From: Verrucomicrobiales bacterium | Lineage (GTDB): Bacteria; Verrucomicrobiota; Verrucomicrobiia; Verrucomicrobiales; DEV007 | Assembly: GCA_029213265.1 (NCBI GenBank) | Contig: JARGNG010000009.1 | Coordinates: forward strand, 13,804-77,803 | DNA length: 64,000 nucleotides | Direction of reading: 5' to 3' | Shown: piece after piece, positions 13,168 through 27,067 of the stretch | How the letters are laid out: each line of letters starts with the position of its first letter | Numbering within the stretch: the first letter of the stretch is position 1 | Notes under the pieces: generated by a model | Seen by the model: only the letters and a program-made list of their open reading frames with translations | What the model was told of the DNA's origin: nothing | The model's database searches: none | Made by a program: the position numbers and the translations under genes

Positions 13168-15876
13168 TCACGCACCTGGAAGAACCCGTCTTCGGGCGAA
13201 AAACTTCCGGATCTCTTCCGCCCACAAAACGAGACTCGCTACGGCTCCGATGAGAAAGAACTCTTTCAGTGGAATCGGGACGGTGTGAAAAATCCGGTTC
13301 ATGGGCTCCGTGTAGATCACGAGGAAATGAAGAACATTGCCGAGGGCGAGGCCTCCGATCAGCCAATAGTTTCTGAATACGTCAAAATTCAGAGCGGACT
13401 TCAATTCACTGCGGCAGTTGAGGACATTGAACCACTGACAGACGGCGAGAACCGTGAATGTCTCACTACGGGCCACTTCATAGGGAACCTCGGTTGATAA
13501 ACGCCAGACGTAGTAACCGAAGGCGGAAAGCACCATCACAGGAGTCATGATCGCGACCCGGTATAGCATCGCCCGATCGATGAGCGGGTTTCCCTGCGGG
13601 ACGGGAGGGTGGTTCATTTCGTCACCTTCGCGCGGTTCCATGATCAAATTCACGGTCACGGTCCCCTCGGTGATGATGTTGATCCACAGGATCTGAACAG
13701 CGGCAAGCGGAATGGGATATCCCAGGAAAAGTGCGGCCAGGAGCACGGCTACCTCGGCCATCGATGTGGCAAACAGATAGAGAATAACCTTTTTCAGATT
13801 GCGGAAAACGAGACGTCCCACTTCGACAGCATGGACGATCGTTGAAAAGTTGTCGTCCGTGACCACGATTTTTGCCGCGCTTTTTGCCACCTCGGTGCCG
13901 GTGATCCCCATCGCAACGCCGACGTCAGCGGTAGCGAGGGCCGGGGCATCGTTGACTCCGTCTCCGGTCATCGCGACAACATGGTTCTGCGACTGAAATG
14001 CCTTTACGATTCTCAGTTTCTGGTTGGGATGCACCCGGGCAAAGACAGATATCCGGTCGAGTTGAGACACCAGTTCTTCGTCGGACATCTTCTCCAGCTC
14101 CTGCCCATTTACGGCGAGATCGCCTTCCCGGGCAATGCCCAGAATCCGCGCCACCGCGAGACCGGTTAGTTTGTGGTCGCCGGTAACCATAATGGGGCGG
14201 ATCCCCGCACTGCGACACTCTGCGACCGCCTTTTTCACTTCACTGCGGGGAGGGTCCATTTGTCCCACCAGCCCCAGGAAAGTGGCACGGCTCTGAAACT
14301 GGGAAAAACCTGCGCTATTGTCGATGGCATAGTCATCGATCACGGCCACGGCAATGAGGCGGAGGGCGCTTTCTCCCAGCTCGATGGAAACGGCATCGAG
14401 GGTGTCTCGAAAGGAAGCCTCTGCCGGCACTGATTCGCCATTTCGCGACACGTGCGAGCAAAGCGCCAGCACTTCCTCCGGAGCCCCTTTGATGTATACG
14501 CGGCCGCTTGCCCCGCGACCGTGTTGAGTGGCCATCAGTTTCGAGGCGGAATCAAACGGGATTTCTTCGTGGCGGGGGAAAGCCTCGCGCAACTCTGGAA
14601 GCTCCACTCCTCCTTTGATTGCCAGCGTGAGGAGTGCCGCTTCCGTGGGATCCCCGAGGGTCCGCCAACGGGGATCATTCTGGTCCGGCGGAACCAGTTG
14701 AGCGTCGTTGCACAGTGCTGCTGCTTCCAGCAGTGAGCGGAGATCGGGATCCGTTACAATCCAGATTTCTTTTTCTCCTTCTTTTAGGGTTCCAACCGGT
14801 GAATACCCCGCGCCGGTGACAGTGATTTGTCTTCCAACGGGAAGCCAAAGTGATGTGACGGTCATCTCATTTTTCGTCAACGTGCCGGTCTTGTCACTGC
14901 AGATAATACTGGTGGATCCGAGTGTCTCCACGGCGGAAAGCCTTCTCACGATCGCTCCCCGCTTTGCCATGCGCTGCATCCCTACCGCCAGCATGATAGT
15001 CATGGCTACGGGCAAGCCCTCCGGGACCATGGATACGAGCTGGCTGATTGCGACCATTAAAACTTCGACAGGTGGCAAGCCCCGGGCAAATCCCAATCCC
15101 ATGACGAGGACAAACAATGCCGCCGCTGCTTTTAACACATAGCGGCCGAATTCCTCAAGGCGCAGCTCCAGCGGCGTCTTCGGATCTTCCGCTCCTGCGG
15201 TCAAATTGGCGATTTGTCCTACTTCCGTTGCGGTTCCCGTAGCGGTTACGACGGCGCGAGCTCTCCCTGCGGTAATGTGGGTTCCCGAATAGACCATGTT
15301 GTGGCGATCCGCGAGAGGGGTATCCCCGGGAAGTTCGTCGACCCGCTTGCTAACCGGTAAAGACTCACCGGTCAGTGCCGCCTCGGCCACTTCCAGGGCC
15401 GCCTCCTCAATGAGTCGGGCATCAGCACCAATGCCATCCCCCGCAGCGAGGAGCATAATATCTCCCGGAACGAGATTTTGTGCTTCGATAACCTCCTCCA
15501 CCCCGTCGCGAACCACCCGCACCTTCAAATTCGAAAGACGACGCAATGCTTCCATCGAGCGTTCGGCTCGACCTTCTTGAATCGTACCGATAATCGCATT
15601 CAACATCACGACCACGAGAATCACGATAGAATCACCGCGGTGCCCTGAAAGGTAGGCAATCACAGCTGCCACGAAGAGTATGTAAATCAGTGGGCTCGTG
15701 AACTGCCCCAGCATCACTCTCCAGAGCGGTCGGGTTTCGGATTCGGGCAGAGCGTTGAGCCCGTATTTCCCGATGCGGGTTTCCATATCCACCCGGTTGA
15801 GCCCCGTTTCGAGATCGACGTCGAGTCGGGAGCAAACTCCGGAAATCGGGATCTGATGCCAATCGCTAACATTCAT
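13168..15876 (-). CDS. P2-type cation-transporting ATPase
   Basis: A 902-residue ATPase with an N-terminal cation-ATPase domain, actuator TGES motif (near 169), TM4 motif VPEGLP, phosphorylation motif CSDKTGTLT, MVTGDHKLT and the hinge GDGVNDAPAL. Ten transmembrane segments are expected. The layout is that of Ca2+-ATPases of the SERCA/PMR1 group. By alignment to SERCA, the TM4 Glu and the TM5 Glu (SMAEVAV) are kept, but TM5 Asn768 corresponds to Ser and TM6 Asp800 corresponds to Glu (WINIITEGT). The transported ion is therefore uncertain. It lies 200 bp downstream of hypC on the same strand and probably has its own promoter. Confidence 0.92.
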   Translation of the reverse strand: MNVSDWHQIPISGVCSRLDVDLETGLNRVDMETRIGKYGLNALPESETRPLWRVMLGQFTSPLIYILFVAAVIAYLSGHRGDSIVILVVVMLNAIIGTIQEGRAERSMEALRRLSNLKVRVVRDGVEEVIEAQNLVPGDIMLLAAGDGIGADARLIEEAALEVAEAALTGESLPVSKRVDELPGDTPLADRHNMVYSGTHITAGRARAVVTATGTATEVGQIANLTAGAEDPKTPLELRLEEFGRYVLKAAAALFVLVMGLGFARGLPPVEVLMVAISQLVSMVPEGLPVAMTIMLAVGMQRMAKRGAIVRRLSAVETLGSTSIICSDKTGTLTKNEMTVTSLWLPVGRQITVTGAGYSPVGTLKEGEKEIWIVTDPDLRSLLEAAALCNDAQLVPPDQNDPRWRTLGDPTEAALLTLAIKGGVELPELREAFPRHEEIPFDSASKLMATQHGRGASGRVYIKGAPEEVLALCSHVSRNGESVPAEASFRDTLDAVSIELGESALRLIAVAVIDDYAIDNSAGFSQFQSRATFLGLVGQMDPPRSEVKKAVAECRSAGIRPIMVTGDHKLTGLAVARILGIAREGDLAVNGQELEKMSDEELVSQLDRISVFARVHPNQKLRIVKAFQSQNHVVAMTGDGVNDAPALATADVGVAMGITGTEVAKSAAKIVVTDDNFSTIVHAVEVGRLVFRNLKKVILYLFATSMAEVAVLLAALFLGYPIPLAAVQILWINIITEGTVTVNLIMEPREGDEMNHPPVPQGNPLIDRAMLYRVAIMTPVMVLSAFGYYVWRLSTEVPYEVARSETFTVLAVCQWFNVLNCRSELKSALNFDVFRNYWLIGGLALGNVLHFLVIYTEPMNRIFHTVPIPLKEFFLIGAVASLVLWAEEIRKFFARRRVLPGA

Positions 15877-16076: not shown

Positions 16077-16340
16077 TCAGGTTTCATCCACCGTCTGAAT
16101 CCCGCCGGCATTTTCGGCATCGGCGCCGATCATCCTTAGGGTGCGCATGGCTTCCGCTTCGTCCACCACCGCGATGGCGAAACCGACGTGCACCAGGACA
16201 TAGTCGCCCACGACAGCGCCGGGTGTGCACGCGAGTTGAATGGTTTTCACGATGCCGGCGAAAGAGACTCGACCGGAGCGAAACAGAGGGTCTTCGCTTT
16301 CGGTCACTTCAATTACTTTTCCGGGGATCGCGAGGCACAT
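16077..16340 (-). CDS. hypC: HypC hydrogenase maturation chaperone
   Basis: An 87-residue HypC/HupF protein beginning MCLAIPGKV with the essential Cys2. HypC binds the iron precursor with HypD and carries Fe(CN)2CO to the apo large subunit. The frame is open further upstream inside hypF, but the conserved MCLAIPG start fixes the ATG at 16340. The start lies 32 bp inside the 3' end of hypF, so translation is probably coupled. The motif GDYVLVHVGFAI is typical. Last gene of the hydrogenase operon. Confidence 0.95.
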   Translation of the reverse strand: MCLAIPGKVIEVTESEDPLFRSGRVSFAGIVKTIQLACTPGAVVGDYVLVHVGFAIAVVDEAEAMRTLRMIGADAENAGGIQTVDET

Positions 16341-18600
16341 GGGTGTGAGCAGATTGGGATTGGAGCTTTCGCCCTGCGACGATGGCCTGCCCGAGGGCAA
16401 GCCCGCCGTCATTGGGCGGCATGAGATTCGGCCAGACCGGAACAAACTCTTCCTCGCGGAGCCTCGCAATCGTTCTTTCCAGCAAAAGAGCGTTTTGGAA
16501 ACAGCCTCCTGTCAGGACGACGGTCTTCTTTCCGGCAACGCGGGCTATGAGGAGAATGGCATCGCTCATCGATTCCATGAATCGGGCGACGATGGTCGGA
16601 ACCTGAACATTGTGGCTTAGGTCCTCGAGAAGTGCCCGAATCATCGGTTCCCAGTCGAGGATTTGATCCCGTAGCTCGAGCGGCGTGAATCGACTGCCGT
16701 CCGGACCTGCCATGCATTCCATGTCCATCGCTGCCTGGGCTTCAAATTCGTTGTGCCAGCGCAGTCCGGTGAGTGCGGCAACGGCATCAAATAACCTTCC
16801 TGCGCTGGATGTGCTCGCTACCCTGATTCGCTTCTCGAGTTGGGTGTAGGCAATGGCAATTTCCTTCTCGGTGAAAGCAGAAGCCAAGGGGGTGTCCTTC
16901 ACTGCGATGCCCGCTTCGAAAAGAAGTCCGAGAGCGGCATATCGCGGCTGGCGGATGGCCAACTCGCCGCCGGGGAGAGGAAAGGATCGCAGCGAGGCAA
17001 ACCTCTCGGAGTCTGTCTGGTTTGCAATGAGGAATTCGCCCCCCCAAATGGTGCCGTCAGTGCCATATCCCGTGCCGTCCCAGGCGATGCCGAGGACCTC
17101 TTCCTCAATGTGGTGTTCCGCGAGGCAGCTGGCCACGTGGGCATGATGATGCTGCACCTGGATCAGCTCCAACCCCATTTCTTCCGCCATCCTCACGCTG
17201 TGGTAACCCGGGTGCTGGTCAGCGGCGACCGCTTGCGGCTGAACCTGGCAAATCGAGGGGAAGTCCAGGCACTGCTCTGCAAACACCTGTTGGGCAGGTT
17301 CCGTTTCGAGGTCGCCGATATGCTGGCCACAGCGAATCCCAAAAGGGCCGGACACAGCGATCGAAGTCTTTTGATCCCCTCCAGTTGCGAGAACCGGCGG
17401 ATGGTTTCCTTCAATGGTGACAGGCGTAAACCCTCGTGAGCGCCGCAAGAACAACTCGCGGCCGGCCGTGACACGAAGCACGGAATCATCCACGGCACGT
17501 GCGATAGACCGGTCATGAACGAGGAAGGCATCCGCAATGCCCCGCATGGAAAGGAAGGCTTCGTCGTTTTCCGTACAGATCGGTTCGTCGGAAATGTTGC
17601 CGCTCGTGGCGATTACGGGGAAAGCAAGCCGTCGCATCAGAAGGTGATGGAGCGGCGAGTAGGGCAGGAGGACACCGAGCCCGGGATTGCCGGGTGCGAG
17701 CGAATCGGGCAGAGTGTCGGAATCACGCCGGCGTAAGAGGACGATCGGAGCACCCGGCGAAGCGATGGCTTTCTCTTCCAAAGAGGAAAGTTCGCAATGA
17801 CTGCGAACCGAAACCAGATCCAGCATCATGACCGCGAGAGCCTTCGCGGGGCGGTGTTTCCGGATTCGAAGCTGGCTGACTGTTTCCGAAGAGCGAGCAT
17901 CCGCGATCAGGTGAAAGCCCCCGATTCCTTTCACCGCCACAATTTGGCCGGCCTCGATGGCCTGAGCGGCGCGTTCCAGAGCCTCCTCCCGGCTGGCGAG
18001 AACCCGGCCATGAGCATCGGTGAAAGAGAGTTGCGGTCCGCAGTCAGGGCACGCATTGGGCTGGGCATGAAATCGACGATCTATGGGAGATCCATACTCC
18101 TCCCGGCATGCCGCGCACATGGGGAAGTCGCGCATCGTGGTGCGTTCCCGATCATAGGGCAGCGAAAGGACGATGCTGAAGCGTGGCCCACACTGGGTGC
18201 AGTTCGTGAACGGGTAGTGATAGCGGCGGTTGGTCGGGTCAAAGATCTCGCGAAGACAATCTGAACAGGTGGCAAGGTCGGGAACGATTTCGGCTGAGGC
18301 ATTTCCGGACTGTTTTTCCCCGGAACGACGAATCATGAAATCAGAATCACCCCGGGGCTCTTGAGGCGATGCCGACACGCCGCGAACAACCGCATGACCC
18401 GGGGCATCGCGACTGACCCGCTGCAAAAAAGTCGCGCAAGCCGTCGCATCTCCTTCGATCTCTATGGATAAACCGATCAGCGAATTGCGGGCCCAGCCAT
18501 TGAGGCCCAGCTCATTTGCTAGCTTGTGAACAAAGGGCCTGAACCCGACTCCCTGCACTGTCCCGGCGATCTCGATTCTGTGTCGTTCGGTGGCAGCCAT
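16309..18600 (-). CDS. hypF: HypF carbamoyltransferase
   Basis: A 763-residue HypF of normal length. It has an N-terminal acylphosphatase domain (1-90, GTVQGVGFRPFV), paired zinc fingers (about 107-195, CSDC, CTQC, CAAC, CPDC), a YrdC-like domain (about 200-390) and a Kae1-like C-terminal domain with the metal-binding VQHHHAHVAS. It converts carbamoyl phosphate to the thiocarbamate on HypE, the source of the cyanide ligands. Its ATG follows the hypA stop with no gap. Confidence 0.96.
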   Translation of the reverse strand: MAATERHRIEIAGTVQGVGFRPFVHKLANELGLNGWARNSLIGLSIEIEGDATACATFLQRVSRDAPGHAVVRGVSASPQEPRGDSDFMIRRSGEKQSGNASAEIVPDLATCSDCLREIFDPTNRRYHYPFTNCTQCGPRFSIVLSLPYDRERTTMRDFPMCAACREEYGSPIDRRFHAQPNACPDCGPQLSFTDAHGRVLASREEALERAAQAIEAGQIVAVKGIGGFHLIADARSSETVSQLRIRKHRPAKALAVMMLDLVSVRSHCELSSLEEKAIASPGAPIVLLRRRDSDTLPDSLAPGNPGLGVLLPYSPLHHLLMRRLAFPVIATSGNISDEPICTENDEAFLSMRGIADAFLVHDRSIARAVDDSVLRVTAGRELFLRRSRGFTPVTIEGNHPPVLATGGDQKTSIAVSGPFGIRCGQHIGDLETEPAQQVFAEQCLDFPSICQVQPQAVAADQHPGYHSVRMAEEMGLELIQVQHHHAHVASCLAEHHIEEEVLGIAWDGTGYGTDGTIWGGEFLIANQTDSERFASLRSFPLPGGELAIRQPRYAALGLLFEAGIAVKDTPLASAFTEKEIAIAYTQLEKRIRVASTSSAGRLFDAVAALTGLRWHNEFEAQAAMDMECMAGPDGSRFTPLELRDQILDWEPMIRALLEDLSHNVQVPTIVARFMESMSDAILLIARVAGKKTVVLTGGCFQNALLLERTIARLREEEFVPVWPNLMPPNDGGLALGQAIVAGRKLQSQSAHTHVPRDPRKSN

Positions 18601-18876
18601 TCACTCTGACTCGTCGATTTCGACTTCAATGTTTCGAAGGAGAATTTGTTGTGCATTGGAGTCATTCATATCCTCCGATACTTCGATGTCGAGCCAGGCG
18701 CCTTCAGCGACGGTGCCCCGGGAAAACTCGACGAAGTAGTCAGCGAACCGGTCGGGCGAGAGATGACTCAGCGCCCCCAGCCAGACCTCCACAACCAAAG
18801 CCCGTCTCCCACCGTTGGCGCGGACCACGTCGTCGATTTTGGACAGCAGATTGTTGATGAGAGAGAGTTCGTGCAT
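18601..18876 (-). CDS. hypA: HypA-like nickel protein lacking the zinc domain
   Basis: A 91-residue protein starting MHELSLINNL, with the nickel-binding His2 and Glu3 of HypA. The N-terminal half aligns well (VWLGALSHLSP, FEFSRGTVAEGAWLDIE in outline), and the last residues LLRNIEVE match the usual C-terminal strand. Between them the whole zinc ribbon with its two CxxC pairs is missing, and the protein contains no Cys at all. Ordinary HypA is about 113-118 residues. The start is fixed by MHE; a longer frame reaching back into the protease gene is rejected. The reading frame is intact, so this is a domain deletion, not a frameshift. It sits between the protease and hypF genes. Confidence 0.85.
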   Translation of the reverse strand: MHELSLINNLLSKIDDVVRANGGRRALVVEVWLGALSHLSPDRFADYFVEFSRGTVAEGAWLDIEVSEDMNDSNAQQILLRNIEVEIDESE

Positions 18877-18880
18877 CGTT

Positions 18881-19333
18881 CTACTTCTGGCATTCCGCTT
18901 TGACGAGGTCTGCGGCCCGATGCACGGCCTCTTCGATTTCATCGCTCAGCTCGGCGCCATGCTCGAACGAGATTCCTTCGATCCCGAACACGATGACGCG
19001 GGGCGGCAGGGTTCCCAGTGAGCGGGCGAGTTCGACGGCTTCGGCGACTCCGAAGGCATGGGTGGAGCAGTGCAGATAGGAGGTCGGTAGTGGTTCTGTC
19101 GATACATCGAAGCGCTCTATGTCGCCCGGCTGGTTGCCCGATTGAGACGCATCGACCAGAACGGCGGCCCCGGCATCCTTCCATAGATCCATGAGCGAGT
19201 CGGGTGTGCCGGTGGATTCATGGATCGTCACTCCGGCAGGACAGCCTTTCGCGAGAAGGCGGGCGACCTGCCGACCGGCGGCATCATCGCCTCGCATCGG
19301 GTTTCCCACACCGATCACGACGGTCCGGCTCAC
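18881..19333 (-). CDS. Hydrogenase maturation endopeptidase
   Basis: A 150-residue HybD/HyaD-type protease from a GTG at 19333 whose GTGA overlaps the stop of the large-subunit gene. It begins [18 protein letters not shown], where the nickel-sensing acidic residue appears as Asp instead of the more usual Glu. The other ligands are seen in LVDASQSG (Asp) and CSTHAFG (His). The enzyme removes the C-terminal peptide after the DPCxxCxxH motif of the large subunit once nickel is in. Its place directly after the large-subunit gene fits this substrate. Confidence 0.92.
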
Positions 19334-20652
19334 TGGGAAACCTCCTCCCGGTGGATCTTCAGGAAATGGGTCGCGCAGGAAATGCAGGGATCGTAGTTCC
19401 GGATCGTCTGCTCGCACTGCCATTGCAGTTCGTCATCGTTCAGATGGAGGTAGCCGGGGACGAGTCGTCGAAGGTCGTCCTCAATCGTCTTCTGGTTTTG
19501 AGAGGTGGGCGGCACGATTTTCGCCTCGAGGATATCGCCCTGTTCGTCCACGCGGTAACGATGATAGAGCAATCCTCTCGGCGCTTCCGTGCAACCGAAT
19601 CCGGTGCCGCCGCTGGCATCCACCTCGATCGAAGGGGCTTCGGTTGGCTCGTAGTTTCCGATGACACGAAGGGCTTCTTCGCAGGCGTAGAGCATCTCCA
19701 CACTTCGGATCATGATGCTGCGGAAGGGATTGCGGCAAGCGGGATCGAGTCCCACCGCCCGCGCGACGGCAAGGCACCGCGGAGTCAGCTTTTCGAAGTT
19801 GAGAGCGAAGCGCGCCATCGGCCCGACGAAGTAGGCGCCATGCCCTTTGTGAATGGATTGCAGGGCGTTGGTGTAGGGCTCGTGCTCCTCGACGAAGTGC
19901 TGCTCGTAATCCGAGATCGGGATGTCGAGACCACGGTTCGAAATGATCCGTCCCTCGTTCATGGGATACTCGTCCGGATGCGACAGGCAGACCAGTTCGT
20001 AGTCGTGCTCAAAATCGGGGAAGGGCAGGGTCGCGGCCCAGCGAACCGTCTTTTCCGCGATGTCGGCGGCGACCTTCAGATCCTCTTCCAGCTTGGCGAA
20101 ATCCTTTTTCGGGGGGGCTTTGTAGAAACCTCCGACCTTCACGTTGACCGGATGAATCTCGCGGCCGCCGAGAACGATACCGATGTCGTTGCCGATTTTT
20201 TTGAGTTTCAGTCCCATTTCCACGATCTCGCGATGATCTTTCGCCATCTCGATCGCGCTGGGATAGCCGAGAAAGTCGGGCGCGTGCAGCATAAAGACAT
20301 GCAGCCCGTGGCTCTCGATCCACTCGCCACAGTAGAGCAGGCGGCGCAGGTCGCGGATCTGTCCAGTGACACTTACCCCGGCGGCGTCTTCCATGGCGTG
20401 ACAGGAACTCATCTGATAGGCAACCGGGCAGATGCCACAGATCCGCGCGGTGATATCCGGTGCCTCGTGAAAGGATCGCTCGCGCAGGAAGGCTTCAAAA
20501 AACCGGGGGGGCTCGAAGATTTTCAGCTTCACATCTTCGACCTTGCCGTCCTGCACGTTGAGATACATCGCCCCTTCGCCCTCGACGCGGGCGAGGTAGT
20601 CGACCTTGATGGTGCGGGTGGTTCGGGGAGGAGGAGGATCTTCAGGGCTCAT
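19330..20652 (-). CDS. [NiFe] hydrogenase large (alpha) subunit, group 3b type
   Basis: A 440-residue catalytic subunit. The N-terminal ligand motif is [14 protein letters not shown] and the C-terminal one DPCISCATH, supplying the four nickel-bridging Cys. Eleven residues follow the final His and would be cleaved by the neighbouring protease. Short length, lack of a Tat signal on the small subunit, and linkage to FAD and Fe-S subunits indicate a cytosolic bidirectional NAD(P)-linked enzyme (HydA/HyhL type, once called sulfhydrogenase). It interconverts H2 and protons/electrons. Its ATG is 11 bp inside the 3' end of the small-subunit gene. Confidence 0.95.
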
Positions 20653-21427
20653 GTTTGTCGCTTTCTTCGCGGAAGGGGGAGGCGAGGCCGTTAAAAGACC
20701 GGTAGGTCCGCATGATATCGCGGTTACTTACACCCATCGCTTTCCATTGGGCGGAAAGCGCGACGGCGTTGGGGGATTCCATGGGACCGAAGCAGCCGAA
20801 ACAGCCACGATTGTAGGCCGGGCAAATCGCGCCGCATCCCGCCTGGGTGACCGGGCCGAGGCAGGGTGTCCCGTGCGCTACCATGACACAGGGATTGCCG
20901 CGCAGTTTGCACTCCACACAGACGCTGTGCTGCGGGACGACCGGTTTGCGACGGTGGAGAAATGCTACGACGACCTCGAGTAGCTGGTGCTTGTTCACCG
21001 GGCAGCCTCTCAGTTCAAAGTCCACCGCCACGTGATCCGAAATGGGGGTGGAGGTGGCGAGAGTATCCAGGTATTCCGGTTTGGCATAAACAACCGAGGC
21101 CATTTCCTTCACGTCCTGCCAGTTGCGCAGGGCCTGGATCCCGCCGGCGGTGGCACAGGCTCCGATGGTGACGAGATACTTCGATTGAGCGCGGACCTCG
21201 AGGATGCGCTCGGCATCATGGGCGGTGGTAATAGATCCCTCGACGAGTGAGAGATCATAGGGGCCTTCGACGACCCGGCGGGTCGCCTCGGCAAAGTTGG
21301 CGATTTCGATGGCATCGGCCACGGCAAGCAATTCGTCCTCGCAGTCCAGCAGACTGAGTTGGCAACCGTCGCAGGAGGCGAATTTCCAGACCGCCAGTTT
21401 GGGTCTCTGTGTTTCGTCGCTGCTCAT
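20642..21427 (-). CDS. [NiFe] hydrogenase small (delta) subunit
   Basis: A 261-residue electron-transfer subunit without signal peptide. The proximal cluster Cys are in [16 protein letters not shown] and RGCP. The C-terminal third is Cys-rich (CVEC, GNPC, CGAIC, GCFGC) and can hold two more 4Fe-4S clusters, as in HydD/HyhS of group 3b enzymes. It relays electrons from the large subunit to the gamma and beta subunits. The ATG overlaps the stop of the gamma gene (ATGA). Confidence 0.94.
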
Positions 21428-22290
21428 ACCTCGCGTTGGGAAAACCAGTGATGGATGTGATCGTAGCGGAAGACCGGGCCGTCACGACAGATGAATTCGG
21501 GACCAAACTGGCAGTGCCCGCAAATCCCCACAGCGCACTTCATGTTTCGCTCCAGGGTAACAAAGAGCCGGGAGTCGGGGAGGCCATTTTTGTTCAGTTC
21601 CACAGCGGTGAAGCGCATCATGATTTCGGGACCGCAAACCATGGCGACGGCATTTGCCGGGTCGAAATCCGCCTGCGGGATGAGCGTGGTCACGACGCCG
21701 ACGTGGTGGTACCAATCAATTCCCGCGCGATCCACCGTGAGCTTCACCTCGACATCCGGCTCCTCTTTCCATTCGAGTAATTCGTCATGAAAAATCAGAT
21801 CTTCCGGGCTTCGCGCTCCGGCGAGGATCACAATGCGTCCATAGTCTTTGCGATGGGCGAGAGCGTGAAGGATGGCGGGACGCAGCGGGGCGAGTCCGAT
21901 GCCGCCGGCAACGAAAACCAGGTCGCGGCCGGGCAATTCCTCGATGGGCCAGGCACTGCCGAAGGGGCCGCGCAGACCGATGGTGTCGCCAGGAGCAAGC
22001 CTGTCCAATGCGCTGGTCACGGTGCCGACGCGGCGGATCGTGTGCACCCGGGTATCGCTGTTTTCCGGAGACCCGCTGATGGAAATGGCGCTCTCTCCGG
22101 TCCCGAAAGCATACAGCATGTTGAACTGCCCCGGAGCAAAAGGGCGCAAGGTTCCTTCCTCCGCCGGTCGCAGCTCAATCGTAAAGGTGTCCGCGTTCTC
22201 TTCCAGGCGTGACACGACCACCCAGGGTTCAGGCAGCATCGAGCCGGCCTGAAGCGCTGACGCATCGGGTGGGTGGAGGACTGAGCTCAT
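21424..22290 (-). CDS. Hydrogenase gamma subunit, FAD/NAD(P)-binding with 2Fe-2S
   Basis: A 288-residue ferredoxin-NADP reductase-like protein. The FAD region shows PGQFNMLY; the nucleotide fold shows [13 protein letters not shown] and VCGPEIMM. The C-terminal Cys group [14 protein letters not shown] plus a later Cys binds a 2Fe-2S cluster as in dihydroorotate dehydrogenase PyrK and HydG/HyhG. It exchanges electrons between the hydrogenase and NAD(P)H. Its start overlaps the stop of the cyclic-nucleotide-domain gene by ATGA. Confidence 0.94.
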
Positions 22291-22763
22291 GGAGCGGTTG
22301 TGTCGGCGGGGGCGCCATAGATATCGATCAGCTGGAGACGGGTTGCTTCGAGGCGGTCAGCCATCATTTTGGAAAATCGTTTCATCATCGTATAGCCGAA
22401 GCGGGGGTCCGACTCGCACTTGTTGCGAAGGCAGCGGCCATCAATCGAAAAAGCGCGCACATTGGATACTGCCCGGAGATCGAAGTGCCAGTCGTAGGGA
22501 GGCACGAGCCAGGACCAACCGACGACATCACCCGCGTCCGAGGTCTGGAGTCGCATCAGCCCCTGAGGAGAGGGCATTTCCATGGCGATACGACCTTCAC
22601 GAATCAGAAAAAACTCGTCAGCTGGTTCGCCCTGCTTCGCCACGAGGTCACCCTCATGGAAACGGACGTTCTTGGCACAACTGGTGATGAGATGAATCGA
22701 GTCATCATCAAATCCTGAAAAGAGAGGATGTTTCCGGAGTAGGGGTTCGAGGGTAGTGCTCAT
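22287..22763 (-). CDS. Cyclic-nucleotide-binding-fold protein inside the hydrogenase operon
   Basis: A 158-residue protein made of a single cNMP-binding beta-barrel (about 10-130: [22 protein letters not shown]) and a C-terminal helix. There is no DNA-binding helix-turn-helix. In the segment where cAMP-binding domains carry the phosphate-binding G-E-x-A-L...R, this protein reads [13 protein letters not shown] then LRA, so the canonical Glu is missing. It probably senses another ligand or acts as a structural/allosteric part of the hydrogenase. Four-base overlaps on both sides show tight co-translation with the beta and gamma subunits. Confidence 0.88.
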
Positions 22764-23911
22764 GATGTCGTAGGCGCAGGATGGTTGTCCTTTTCCCGGA
22801 TGGCTGCGACCTCCTGCGTGAGGTCAATCCCAACCGGGCACCAGGTGATGCAACGGCCACAACCGACGCAACCCGATGATTGAAACTGATCGTGCCAGGT
22901 GGAAAGCTTGTGGGTCAGCCACTGTCGATAGCGTGATTTGGCGGACTGACGGGCGCTGCCTCCATGCATCCAGGTGAAATCCAAAGTGAAGCACGAGTCC
23001 CAGCTTCGCCAGCGTTCGGCGTTGTCGCCGGTCAGATCGGTGACATCCTCTACCGTGGTGCAAAAGCAGGTGGGACAGACCATCGTGCAATTCGCGCAAG
23101 TCAGGCAGCGCTGGGCGACGTCCTCCCATTGGGGATGCTCGAGATTTTCGCGGAGCAACTCACGCACGCCCCCGGTATCCATCCTGCGGCCCATCGTGGA
23201 GGCGGCATGTTCGACTCGTTGTTTGGCGGCGGACACGTGTTCAGGCCCGGCCGGAGTGGCGGGAAGTTCGTTCAGGACTTCGCGGCCTTCGTCACTACCT
23301 GCTGTGAGGACAAAGTAGTGGGAGGTGTCTTCGATCACTTCGGTTACTGCGAGATCGTGCGGCGTTTGATCGGTCACTTCGGGGCCGGTTCCCATGGAGA
23401 CGCAGAAACAGGTGCCGCCTGCCTCTCCACAGCTCACTCCGATCGAGAAAATATTCTTTCGACGCCTCTCATAATGGGAGTCCGCCGTTCCGCTGCCGAG
23501 GAAAACTTTGTCCTGAATCATCATCGCGTTCAGCTCGCAGGATTTCATTCCGAGGAAGGCATAGCGAACGGGCTCTTCCTCGTCGCCATCGGTGAAAGTC
23601 ATGTGGCCGCTCGTATCGCGTTCCGCTTTCACGAGACGCAAACGCTGGGGATGAAGGTATTTTTTCCAGGATTCGGGACCGACTACGTATCCAAACAGCG
23701 CTTCATCTTCCCGCCGCTTCAAACGATAGTGTCCTCCCTCCTGTTCGTCTTTCCAACCGATCGGCAGGTCCTCCACTTTGGTTAGATCATCGTAGACAAT
23801 CGTACCATCCCGCACCGTCGGTCCGACGACCCGGTAACCGCGACGTGCCAGCGCTTCGAGCAGCGAGCCAAATTGTTCGCGGGGAAGAAGAACGGGAGGG
23901 TCGGTCGTCAT
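22760..23911 (-). CDS. Hydrogenase beta subunit, 4Fe-4S protein
   Basis: A 383-residue iron-sulfur protein of the sulfhydrogenase beta / anaerobic sulfite reductase A type (HydB/HyhB). Two clusters lie in the C-terminal third: [12 protein letters not shown] and [12 protein letters not shown]. The N-terminal half has the family pattern [12 protein letters not shown]. It passes electrons between the small subunit and the flavin subunit or external carriers. The start shares one base with the hypE stop (TGATG). The beta-gamma-delta-alpha gene set is what defines the enzyme as group 3b. Confidence 0.93.
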
Positions 23912-24957
23912 CAGCAGATTCGGGGTAGTTGTTCGCCGTGCAGCATTTCGACCACACGCCTTGTCCCCACGATAGATTCTAATACGACCCGGCCTTTTTG
24001 CTCACCGGCGATTGTGCCGATCCTGAGCGCATTTTGCGTTACCGGAAATTCGGATAACACGCTGATTGCCTCTTCTACGCTCTCTTCGGGTAGAATGGCA
24101 ATCATTCTGCCCTCGTTCGCGACATGGAGGGGATCGAGTCCCAGCATCTCGCAGGCACCCCGCACCTGGGTCTCCACCGGGATGTCGACTTCGCGAATGC
24201 GGGCTGTCAGGTGGGAGTCCAGCATCAGTTCCTTCAGGGCTGCGGCGAGACCTCCGCGGGTCAGGTCGCGCAGGCAATGAACCGGCAGTCCGGCGGCGAG
24301 TAGAGCCAGAACCGGTTCGTGGAGAAGAGCGGAATCGCTCTGGATCGTAGTCTCAAAATCGAGACTTTCACGAGCCGCGAGAACGGCGATGCCGTGTCGC
24401 CCGATGTCGCCACTGAGCAGAATGGCATCTCCTTCCCGAATCGCTGCCGGGCCGATCTCGAGGGAATGTTCGACGATCCCGATTCCCGAGGTATTGATGA
24501 AAATCCCGTCCCCTTTGCCGCGATCAACCACTTTGGTATCGCCGGTGACGACCTGGATGCCCGCCCCGGTTGCCGCAGTATGCAGGGATTCCATGATCCG
24601 GCGCAGCTCATTCAGCGGCAGCCCTTCTTCCAAAATCAAACCGACGCTGAGACACAGAGGGCGGGCTCCGCACATGGCGAGATCGTTGACCGTACCGTGC
24701 ACCGCCATCGAACCAATGTCGCCTCCGGGGAAAAAGCGGGGACGAACGACGTAGGAATCGGTCGTGAATGCGAGACGCCCACCGGTAGCCGGGAGCACCG
24801 CTCCGTCGTGATGGGCACAGACCGGGGAATCTCCGAGAGAGGGGAAAATAATTTCGTCGAGAAGCCGGTGCATCATGACTCCGCCGCTGCCGTGCGAAAG
24901 CTGCACCGTTCCGCCCTCGTCGTGAGGTATCGGACAGGAGATCGTTGAGTCTTTCAT
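23911..24957 (-). CDS. hypE: HypE carbamoyl-dehydratase
   Basis: A 348-residue AIR-synthase-like protein. It starts [11 protein letters not shown]; a longer frame to 25077 overlaps hypD and is rejected. Motifs: [42 protein letters not shown]. The C-terminus is PRIC, with the terminal Cys that accepts the carbamoyl group from HypF and is dehydrated to thiocyanate with ATP. ATG overlaps the hypD stop (ATGA). Confidence 0.96.
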
Positions 24958-26060
24958 TCCGGCACCTCCTCTTCCGATCTTCGGTAGCGGTAGTAAGCCG
25001 CACAGGCCCCTTCGTCCGACACCATCGTTGCGCCGACGGGGTGCTCCGGAGTGCAAATGGTACCGAAGTGCGGACACTGATCCGGCTTTTTCCTTCCCTG
25101 AAGAATCAAGCCGCTGATGCAGCCCGAGTCCGCTTCCCGCACGGGTTCTCGGGTCAATCCGAATCGACGTTCCGCGTCAAAATCCGCATACGCTTCTGAA
25201 AGGCCGAACCCGCTTTGCGGAATCTCTCCGATCCCGCGCCATTCCCGGGGAATGATGCGAAACACCTCGCGAATGATTTGCTGTGCGGGAGTGTTTCCCT
25301 CGCGGTTGACCCAGCGCGCGTATTGGTTTTCCACGGTAGCGAGGCCGTCTTCCAGTTGACGCACGCAGAGCAGGATTCCCTGCAGGATGTCGACGGGCTC
25401 AAATCCCGTGACGACGATGGGGACGTGATATTTTGCGGCGATGGGAACATATTCCTCCCACCCCATGATGGCGCAGACATGACCGGCTGCGAGGAATCCC
25501 TGGACCCGGTTGTCCGGCGCGGAGAGCACGGCCTCCATCGCTGGCGGCACGACGACGTGGGAACAGATCACAGAGAAATTTTTTACCTGCAGCGCTTTTG
25601 CCTGGCGCAATGCCATGCCGTTGGCGGGAGCGGTCGTTTCAAAACCGACCGCAAAAAATACGACTTCGCGATCCGGGTTTTCGATCGCAATTTGGAGTGC
25701 ATCGATGGGGGAGTAGACAAACCGTACGTCTGCGCCTTCGGATTTTGCCCGGAAGAGATCGTCCTTCGTTCCCGGAACCCGCAGCATGTCGCCAAACGAA
25801 CACAGGATCACTCCCGGACGCCGCGCGATTTCGATGGCGGCGTCAATCAGGTGCGCAGGGGTCACACATACCGGGCAGCCGGGGCCATGGACCAGGGTCA
25901 ACTTCTCCGGCAGCAGGGTGTCGAGACCAAACCGCACAATTGCGTGGGTCTGCCCACCACAAACCTCCATGATCGTCCAGGGCCGGGTAGCGACGTTCTC
26001 AATCGCATCCGCCAGCCGTCGAACGGCATCACTGTCGCGATAGTCGTCGAGATGTTTCAT
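24954..26060 (-). CDS. hypD: HypD Fe-S scaffold for the iron centre
   Basis: A 368-residue HypD. It begins [10 protein letters not shown]; the frame is open for another 65 codons upstream, but that lies inside ureE and the ATG at 26060 overlaps the ureE stop (ATGA). Landmarks are [30 protein letters not shown] and the 4Fe-4S region with Cys in [22 protein letters not shown] and [10 protein letters not shown]. With HypC it assembles the Fe(CN)2CO unit. Confidence 0.96.
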
Positions 26061-26524
26061 GGCTTGGTTTCGGGCGTCGGGTTGGCAACTGCGGCGGCCA
26101 CTTCCGGCGGCAGTCTCAGCGGCTGAAACACGACGTTCAGCTCCTCGTGCGGCCACTCCTCGCGTTCGATCATTCCTTTGACGATGGGATGAACCGTCAC
26201 TCTCAGAAAGCCATCCACGATTTGCACGGGGAAGTGGAGATTGCCGATCTTCCAACCGACCAGCGCGGCGAGTTCCATCGTCGGAGTCGCGATTTGATAG
26301 ACTGGCTCTGTTTTCTGCACAATCACATAGTCAGCCGCGTCCGTCTGGTAGATAACGCAGCCGGTCTTGAGACGTGATTCGAGATCGAAATCAAACTCCG
26401 TGCCGTCCGCGGCCACGCCCTGCCAGCGGCGTTTCAGAAAACGATAGCGCTCTACTTCCAGCCTGACTTGTTCGCTTTCGGGGCGCAGCGAGTGCTCCGC
26501 CACCATTTTCCTGACCGCTTGCAT
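26057..26524 (-). CDS. ureE: UreE-type nickel metallochaperone
   Basis: A 155-residue protein recognisable as UreE. The peptide-binding-like N-terminal part has [18 protein letters not shown]; the C-terminal metal-binding part has [14 protein letters not shown], where His97 corresponds to the invariant nickel-binding His at the UreE dimer interface, and VHPIVKGM, where His112 may match a second metal His. The His-rich tail of Klebsiella UreE is absent. UreE normally delivers nickel to urease, but no urease gene is visible in this window. Position directly ahead of hypD suggests it supplies nickel to the hydrogenase. Confidence 0.82.
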
Positions 26525-26527
26525 GGA

Positions 26528-27067
26528 TCACCTGATTACCGCGAGCCGCATCCTCCTAGGCTGGAAGGACCGGAGTGCGAACGCCAACAAGGCACCGGGT
26601 GTGAGTCCGGCTGCGGTTCCGAGACAAAGGCCCAAGGTATCAAATCCCGCGCCATGGGAACAACCCTGCCAGAAACCCATCGCGGCGACGAGGCACCACG
26701 GAGCGACTTTCGCGAGACGGGATTGGTTCAAAAGCAGCAGGCCCGAAAGAATCACCGACAAAGCCACCAGCGGGACCGAGATCGCCATCCCGGACTCCAG
26801 GCCTAAACCGAGTGCTCCAACAAACGTGACTCCGATGGCGGAACCCGGCCGGATCCCCATTGTAAAGGCCAAAGCTCCTACTCCGAGCATCACCGCCAGG
26901 TGATCAAAAGAAACGAATGGATGCGTAACCGAGTCGCGATACGATCTTTCGTCGAATTCATCGATTTCCTCCTCGGGATGAAAATGTCCGGGATGTGCCT
27001 GCGTGACTCCGCAGCAGGAAAACAAGATGATTGCAATGAATGTAGGCACGGAACAAAATCGCATCAT
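26528..27067 (-). CDS. hupE: HupE/UreJ family nickel permease
   Basis: A 179-residue membrane protein, first gene of the hydrogenase operon. A signal peptide (1-24) ends in TQA, so the mature protein would begin HPGHFHPEEE, a His-rich periplasmic entry site. The family motif is seen as HPFVSFDHLAVMLGVG (near 49-64). About five to six transmembrane helices follow, including GFWQGCSHGAG. HupE/UreJ proteins bring nickel (in some cases cobalt) through the inner membrane. The stop is 3 bp before the ureE ATG. Two adjacent ATGs (27067, 27064) are possible starts. Confidence 0.9.
   Translation of the reverse strand: MMRFCSVPTFIAIILFSCCGVTQAHPGHFHPEEEIDEFDERSYRDSVTHPFVSFDHLAVMLGVGALAFTMGIRPGSAIGVTFVGALGLGLESGMAISVPLVALSVILSGLLLLNQSRLAKVAPWCLVAAMGFWQGCSHGAGFDTLGLCLGTAAGLTPGALLAFALRSFQPRRMRLAVIR

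Follow-up and report, generated by a model that had tools for sequence, protein, structure and literature searches.

The HypB nucleotide cycle and the HypA zinc site are regarded as the core of nickel insertion into [NiFe] hydrogenases. HypA–HypB insertion is described for Escherichia coli and Helicobacter pylori and, with an ATP-type HypB, for Thermococcus kodakarensis. A review, in the part cited here, states that all HypA proteins have a zinc site (PMC7055735), and in the cited part of a study on H. pylori the HypA exchanges C74A, C74D, C91A and C94A brought hydrogenase activity down to 9–15% (PMC5557546). Here we analyse a [NiFe] hydrogenase operon on a stretch of 64,000 nucleotides from a Verrucomicrobiales bacterium (contig JARGNG010000009.1; the whole stretch is called the window). 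It resembles the HypA–HypB systems in the MHE motif of its HypA, in HypC, HypD, HypE and HypF, in the maturation protease and in the large-subunit motifs. However, HypB was not found in the window, the window HypA is without the zinc hairpin, and a UreE is encoded in the operon.

A second described system is the HypA–UreE exchange that serves urease in H. pylori, as outlined in the cited part of the same review (PMC7055735). The likeness lies in HypA and UreE as likely partners; there, however, HypB, UreG and urease are present and urease is the target, whereas the only target found for the window is the hydrogenase. We propose that nickel is loaded independently of HypB by UreE and the zinc-less HypA acting as a pair, with HupE importing nickel and UreE replacing HypB as the donor, a reading that the comparison of genomes makes moderately probable. 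Among the titles and abstract openings returned by searches of open-licence literature, none dealt with ureE in a hydrogenase operon, with a zinc-less HypA or with UreE replacing HypB.

Genome searches gave no HypB, UreG or urease alpha

A preliminary description, made from the sequence of the locus, had noted that the operon holds no HypB GTPase and had suggested looking for hypB, slyD and the urease genes across the genome (G000; 5.87 Mb, 182 contigs, 93.5% complete). hypB was indeed found neither in the operon nor elsewhere in G000: the HypB model TIGR00073 (cut-off 121.2 bits) gave five matches at E ≤ 10, the best at 19.1 bits, and zero at E ≤ 1e-10 or E ≤ 1e-8. Because TIGR00073 scores the UreG-like genes of urease-bearing relatives at 60–81 bits, UreG was also not found. 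Urease alpha (PF00449), present in 9 of 56 relatives, gave no match in G000 or in the related genomes G405 and G413; the search did not extend to UreF, UreD, UreA, UreB or SlyD.

G000 has a single G3E-family match (PF02492), a 385-residue CobW/COG0523-like protein on another contig than the operon. As the sole candidate for a divergent, hidden HypB it was rejected for this CobW/COG0523-like character, and it is retained in one of the alternatives weighed below.

The window HypA lacks the zinc hairpin

The window HypA starts with MHE (position 18876), has 91 residues and zero cysteines, and matches PF01155 over positions 1–67 of 112. In an alignment of the HypAs from the window and from genomes G405, G413, G430 and G431 (alignment A5), all five have a common 27-column gap over the CxxC-Xn-CxxC hairpin. 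The MHE N terminus is kept, and the final HypA strand is retained after the gap (ILLRNIEVE in the window). A profile search of 37 hand-picked genomes found HypA over the cut-off in 25; 19 of these matches reach position 110–112, those of the five clade members position 66–67 and that of G110 position 74. No second HypA over the cut-off was found in any of the five members in this search. Truncation by an assembly or frame error was rejected, because five genomes have the zinc-less form with low ratios of nonsynonymous to synonymous substitution (dN/dS of 0.05–0.18 among clade pairs, with one of ten pairs undefined as dS was saturated). The predicted structure of the window HypA is poor (mean predicted local distance difference test score, pLDDT, of 54); its top fold matches are HypAs but at E about 2, and they are not used as support.

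UreE is encoded with hydrogenase genes in related genomes

A survey of related genomes, also suggested in the preliminary description, showed that ureE is linked to such an operon in three further metagenome-assembled genomes (MAGs) as well, with HypB below the cut-off there. A single scan of the contig collection with the UreEs of the window and of G413 returned three loci. Two of them, in Verrucomicrobia MAGs, have the window's full gene order: L131 (JAGRPB010000009.1, genome G430), with UreE 74%, alpha 84%, HypA 82% and HupE 44% identical to the window proteins, and L132 (JAEUHH010000037.1, genome G431), with 69%, 85%, 75% and 38%, respectively. The third, L133, reads hupE-ureE-hypD-hypE as far as the contig end and has the same content as contig C243 of G413 (both 11928 bases, in opposite orientation). 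A HupE-like frame precedes ureE in all three and is 38–44% identical to the window HupE. The linkage of hupE and ureE to hydrogenase genes is more than chance, since it is seen again, with these neighbours, in three other MAGs.

No HypB over the cut-off was found in G000, G405, G413, G430 or G431. The chance that hypB was missed through incompleteness in all of G000, G405 and G413 is about 0.003, if the genomes are independent. The best TIGR00073 matches in G430 and G431 (45.1 and 30.2 bits) fall in frames of 500 and 517 residues that are CobW-like. In G430 (L134:1069–2568, plus strand) profile matches indicate the fusion of an ArsR-type helix-turn-helix with a CobW/G3E GTPase domain, and a fusion of the same kind was read by eye in G431 (L135:619–2169, plus strand); these are possibly metal-sensing chaperones unlinked to the hydrogenase. 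In G405 (77% complete) alpha is 86% identical to that of the window and the order gamma-delta-alpha-protease-hypA-hypF-hypC is present. Its ureE cannot be judged, because the contig stops inside gamma. Within the window's genus, alpha occurs in 4 of the 33 genomes searched (in G413 as a fragment only) and urease alpha in 2 of 33, both together in none.

Probable origin of UreE in a urease operon of the order

The nickel-binding histidine of UreE sits in a GNxH motif and is His97, as the preliminary description had it; it is invariant in alignments of eight and of four UreEs. The UreE_C model PF05194 also matches the L133 protein (44.9 bits), and the NCBIfam UreE equivalog models match the window UreE only under their cut-offs (33.6 bits at best, against 144). 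The predicted fold had 23 matches at E ≤ 0.001, every one a solved UreE (best E 3.4e-8, template modelling score about 0.5), from a structure model of moderate quality (mean pLDDT 65). In the alignment of four, the hydrogenase-linked UreEs are 59–73% identical to the window UreE. Pairwise dN/dS among the four is 0.07–0.24, with high dS, and the hydrogenase-linked UreE is under purifying selection. No residue fixed differently between hydrogenase-linked and urease-linked UreEs passed our filter.

A tree of 35 UreEs unites the four hydrogenase-linked proteins in one clade (97/99) within a 13-row clade (100/99) whose remaining nine rows come from the same order. A UreG-like gene lies within 1 kb of all nine, judged by positions. 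Near most of the nine, neighbours that we take by eye, from their motifs, to be ureF- and ureC-like were also present. Since the hydrogenase-linked clade nests among ureG-adjacent UreEs, a single recruitment of UreE out of a urease operon within the order is probable. The window UreE is 50–58% identical to urease UreEs of relatives in the order (family f3) and belongs to the same clade; they stand beside ureG, whereas the window ureE is linked to hyp genes in a genome where neither UreG nor urease alpha was found.

The dedication of UreE to this hydrogenase is very likely, given that hypB, ureG and urease alpha were not found in the searches, that the linkage is conserved and that the tree fits a single recruitment. 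The preliminary description had let UreE and HupE together replace HypB. The dedication of UreE stood up to the linkage and the tree; its replacement of HypB would be a further step, and the zinc-less HypA had been left out altogether. HupE/UreJ proteins are a permease family and would only import nickel.

A congener apparently carries the ordinary pair

Genome G390, from the same genus, has an alpha subunit 77% identical to that of the window and the same core gene order. It differs in having a full HypA, an apparent HypB start and no UreE match. Upstream of hypD, on the opposite strand, lies a full-length HypA with both CxxC motifs, followed by a very histidine-rich frame beginning MCDICGCG (L087:13200–13528, plus strand) that is cut off by the contig end. 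A CXXCGC motif is reported for E. coli HypB in the cited part of a review (PMC7055735), and the G390 frame looks like the start of a HypB, probably of the nickel-storing kind. The remainder of this HypB was not found, the only TIGR00073 match in G390 being one of 48.4 bits in a 392-residue frame on another contig. The hupE-ureE site of the window is thus occupied in G390 by hypA and the MCDICGCG frame.

In the HypA tree, G390 HypA groups with the HypAs of family f5 (94/92, the bootstrap being below the star threshold), and the zinc-less clade sits on a long branch (2.05). An in-place deletion of the hairpin from a G390-like HypA is therefore unsupported. Because the window and G390 HypAs are not sisters, replacement of a module appears to fit better. 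The operons of f5, a family from the same class of bacteria (G042, G054 and G072), are similar to that of the window, with an alpha 48–49% identical and the same beta-cNMP-gamma-delta-alpha order (cNMP, cyclic-nucleotide-binding-domain gene), but these genomes have HypB over the cut-off and a full-length HypA elsewhere and are not among the UreE matches.

HypA and HypB across the phylum

We then considered a draw of 387 genomes from the phylum. A similar alpha subunit (E ≤ 1e-20) occurs in 68, and 64 of these have HypB over the cut-off, the exceptions being G000, G110, G197 and G293. HypA over the cut-off is present in 115 genomes, and the match reaches position 105 or more in 107; all but one of these 107 have HypB, the exception (G132) having a HypA that runs into a contig end. 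The HypA of G192 (L154) is full length with its cysteines present. Eight HypAs are shorter. Those of G000, G110 and G362 are without the hairpin, those of G161 and G206 are placed by coordinates at the start of a contig, and that of G197 runs into a contig end; G003 and G029 keep the cysteine pairs and have no HypB. In the hydrogenase cluster of G110, a 437-residue frame after hypA (L069:11506–12816, plus strand) joins a HypC domain (PF01455) to a radical SAM domain (PF04055).

Proposed nickel-loading route and alternatives

In the route that we propose, HupE probably brings nickel into the cell, and a UreE dimer, probably acquired from urease genes within the order, would hold it at His97. 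UreE would then pass the nickel to the MHE site of the zinc-less HypA, or share it with that site. HypA would dock on a large subunit in which the Fe(CN)2CO group, a product of HypCDEF, is already in place, and would insert the nickel, after which the protease would cleave the large subunit. UreE would take over the nickel-donor role of HypB and perhaps also that of the zinc loop in forming a tight nickel site. In the cited part of the review, the affinity between HypA and UreE of H. pylori is about 1 µM and the two form a new nanomolar nickel site, and in T. kodakarensis the binding of HypB moves HypA His98 to the MHE site (PMC7055735); a UreE histidine could stand in for this residue. We infer the direction of transfer, the HypA–UreE contact and the absence of another NTPase. 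A more far-reaching form of the proposal, in which nickel is inserted without any dedicated NTPase as the UreE dimer and a minimal, zinc-free HypA form a joint site and load the large subunit, is possible, though we rate it at a little below even.

Should this be true, NTPase-free loading would separate nickel delivery from HypB GTP hydrolysis and from the HypA zinc switch. A natural lineage without HypB and the HypA zinc site, and with UreE, makes the purpose of the nucleotide step and of the zinc loop directly testable, and the proteins of 155 and 91 residues are a small pair for reconstitution. UreE would here be a part passed between nickel-enzyme assembly lines.

Several observations weigh against a UreE–HypA pair in the place of HypB. 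G110 and G362 show that losing HypB, losing the zinc hairpin and gaining UreE do not always go together. G362 has a zinc-less HypA of 94 residues (L190:803–1087, plus strand) directly before a HypB over the cut-off, apparently a separate loss of the hairpin; G110 (92% complete) has a zinc-less HypA of 81 residues, HypB was not found there, and it is not among the UreE matches (it was presumably in the searched set). The hairpin can therefore disappear from a genome that keeps HypB, and UreE need not be there when HypB is missing. A strict rule equating HypB loss with hairpin loss was rejected on account of G362. G405 is likewise without a UreE match, though its contig ends early as described. 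The COG0523-like protein is a GTPase encoded in G000, and every genome compared is a draft. Finally, the cited part of the review has nickel in H. pylori travelling the opposite way, from HypA to UreE (PMC7055735).

The GTPase and G110 each lead to an alternative. UreE might be a nickel store while another G3E GTPase, for example the CobW/COG0523-like protein, carries out the NTP-dependent step for HypB. The single PF02492 protein of G000 and the same-family ArsR-type fusions of G430 and G431 would fit this, but the G000 gene is unlinked to the operon, such proteins also occur in relatives for which the search gave no similar hydrogenase (G199, G392, G395 and G408), and G405, at its 77% completeness, has a zinc-less HypA yet no PF02492 match; we consider this explanation unlikely. 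HypB might instead be dispensable here, the zinc-less HypA drawing on the cell's nickel pool and UreE aiding only at low nickel. G110 could be such a case, and in the cited part of one study high nickel overcomes the defect of E. coli hypB mutants (PMC12134894). G110 is, however, incomplete, and hupE and ureE come first in all four species, UreE identity going down to 59% and dN/dS being well below 1, which argues that UreE matters under natural conditions and leaves this account fairly unlikely.

That all genomes are drafts bears on whether hypB is present but lost from the assemblies, with UreE accessory to a normal HypAB pair. The presumed hypB of G390 ends in a histidine-rich repeat at a contig end, so hypB can fall into assembly gaps. 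Yet the complete operons L131 and L132 and that of the window are without it, it was not found elsewhere in the five genomes, incompleteness alone has the low chance given above for three of them, and 106 of the 107 full-length HypAs in the phylum draw come with HypB. We regard such a loss as very unlikely. Least probable of all is that UreE serves another nickel enzyme and stands in the operon by chance or through shared regulation, as ureE lies directly before hypD in four species and neither urease alpha nor UreG was found in G000 or G413.

The operon and its surroundings

Profile matches (Pfam and NCBIfam) define a single uninterrupted operon of 13 genes on the minus strand, running from 27067 to 16077 in the order hupE, ureE, hypD, hypE, beta, cNMP-binding-domain gene, gamma, delta, alpha, protease, hypA, hypF and hypC (Table 1). 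They agree with the preliminary description on HypA, HypC, HypD, HypE, HypF, the protease and the four structural subunits; the gene between beta and gamma had gone unmentioned there and the loss of the HypA zinc hairpin had been overlooked. hupE and ureE are three bases apart, and the ureE stop and hypD start overlap as ATGA.

Table 1. Genes of the hydrogenase operon, with coordinates in the window and supporting matches.
Feature	Coordinates	Strand	Evidence
hupE, HupE/UreJ-type permease, first gene of the operon	26528..27067	-	PF04955, 62 bits (cut-off 23)
ureE, UreE-type nickel chaperone, 155 aa, His97	26057..26524	-	PF05194 (UreE_C), 35.1 bits (cut-off 23); tree; solved UreEs (sequence and fold)
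hypD	24954..26060	-	TIGR00075, 511.8 bits; PF01924
hypE, start inferred; mechanical open reading frame (ORF) extends to 25077	23911..24957	-	TIGR02124, 422 bits
hydrogenase beta subunit (4Fe-4S)	22760..23911	-	PF17179
small cyclic-nucleotide-binding-domain protein, between beta and gamma	22287..22763	-	PF00027, 42.4 bits
hydrogenase gamma subunit (NAD-binding, Fe-S)	21424..22290	-	PF00175, PF10418; NF006220 below cut-off
hydrogenase delta (small) subunit	20642..21427	-	PF01058 (Oxidored_q6)
hydrogenase alpha (large, NiFe) subunit	19330..20652	-	PF00374 (NiFeSe_Hases); RICGIC at 70, DPCISCATH at 421
hydrogenase maturation protease (mechanical ORF)	18881..19423	-	TIGR00072, 108 bits
hypA, 91 aa, MHE present, zinc hairpin absent, no cysteine	18601..18876	-	PF01155, positions 1-67 of 112
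hypF	16309..18600	-	TIGR00143, 777 bits
hypC, start MCLAIPGK inferred	16077..16340	-	PF01455

The closest solved relative of alpha is sulfhydrogenase 1 alpha (E 2.8e-65), and the top NCBIfam match of gamma is NF006220 (cytochrome-c3 hydrogenase subunit gamma; 211.7 bits, under its cut-off). The NiFe-binding motifs and the alpha-beta-gamma-delta set are in keeping with a group 3b-type hydrogenase, a subgroup name that we take from the sulfhydrogenase match and the general classification. The cyclic-nucleotide-binding-domain protein has counterparts of 41–43% identity in four operons from the same class of bacteria (L064–L067). Immediately after hypC, and on its strand, lies a gene for a cation-transporting P-type ATPase (PF00122, PF00689; window positions 13168–15876, minus strand).

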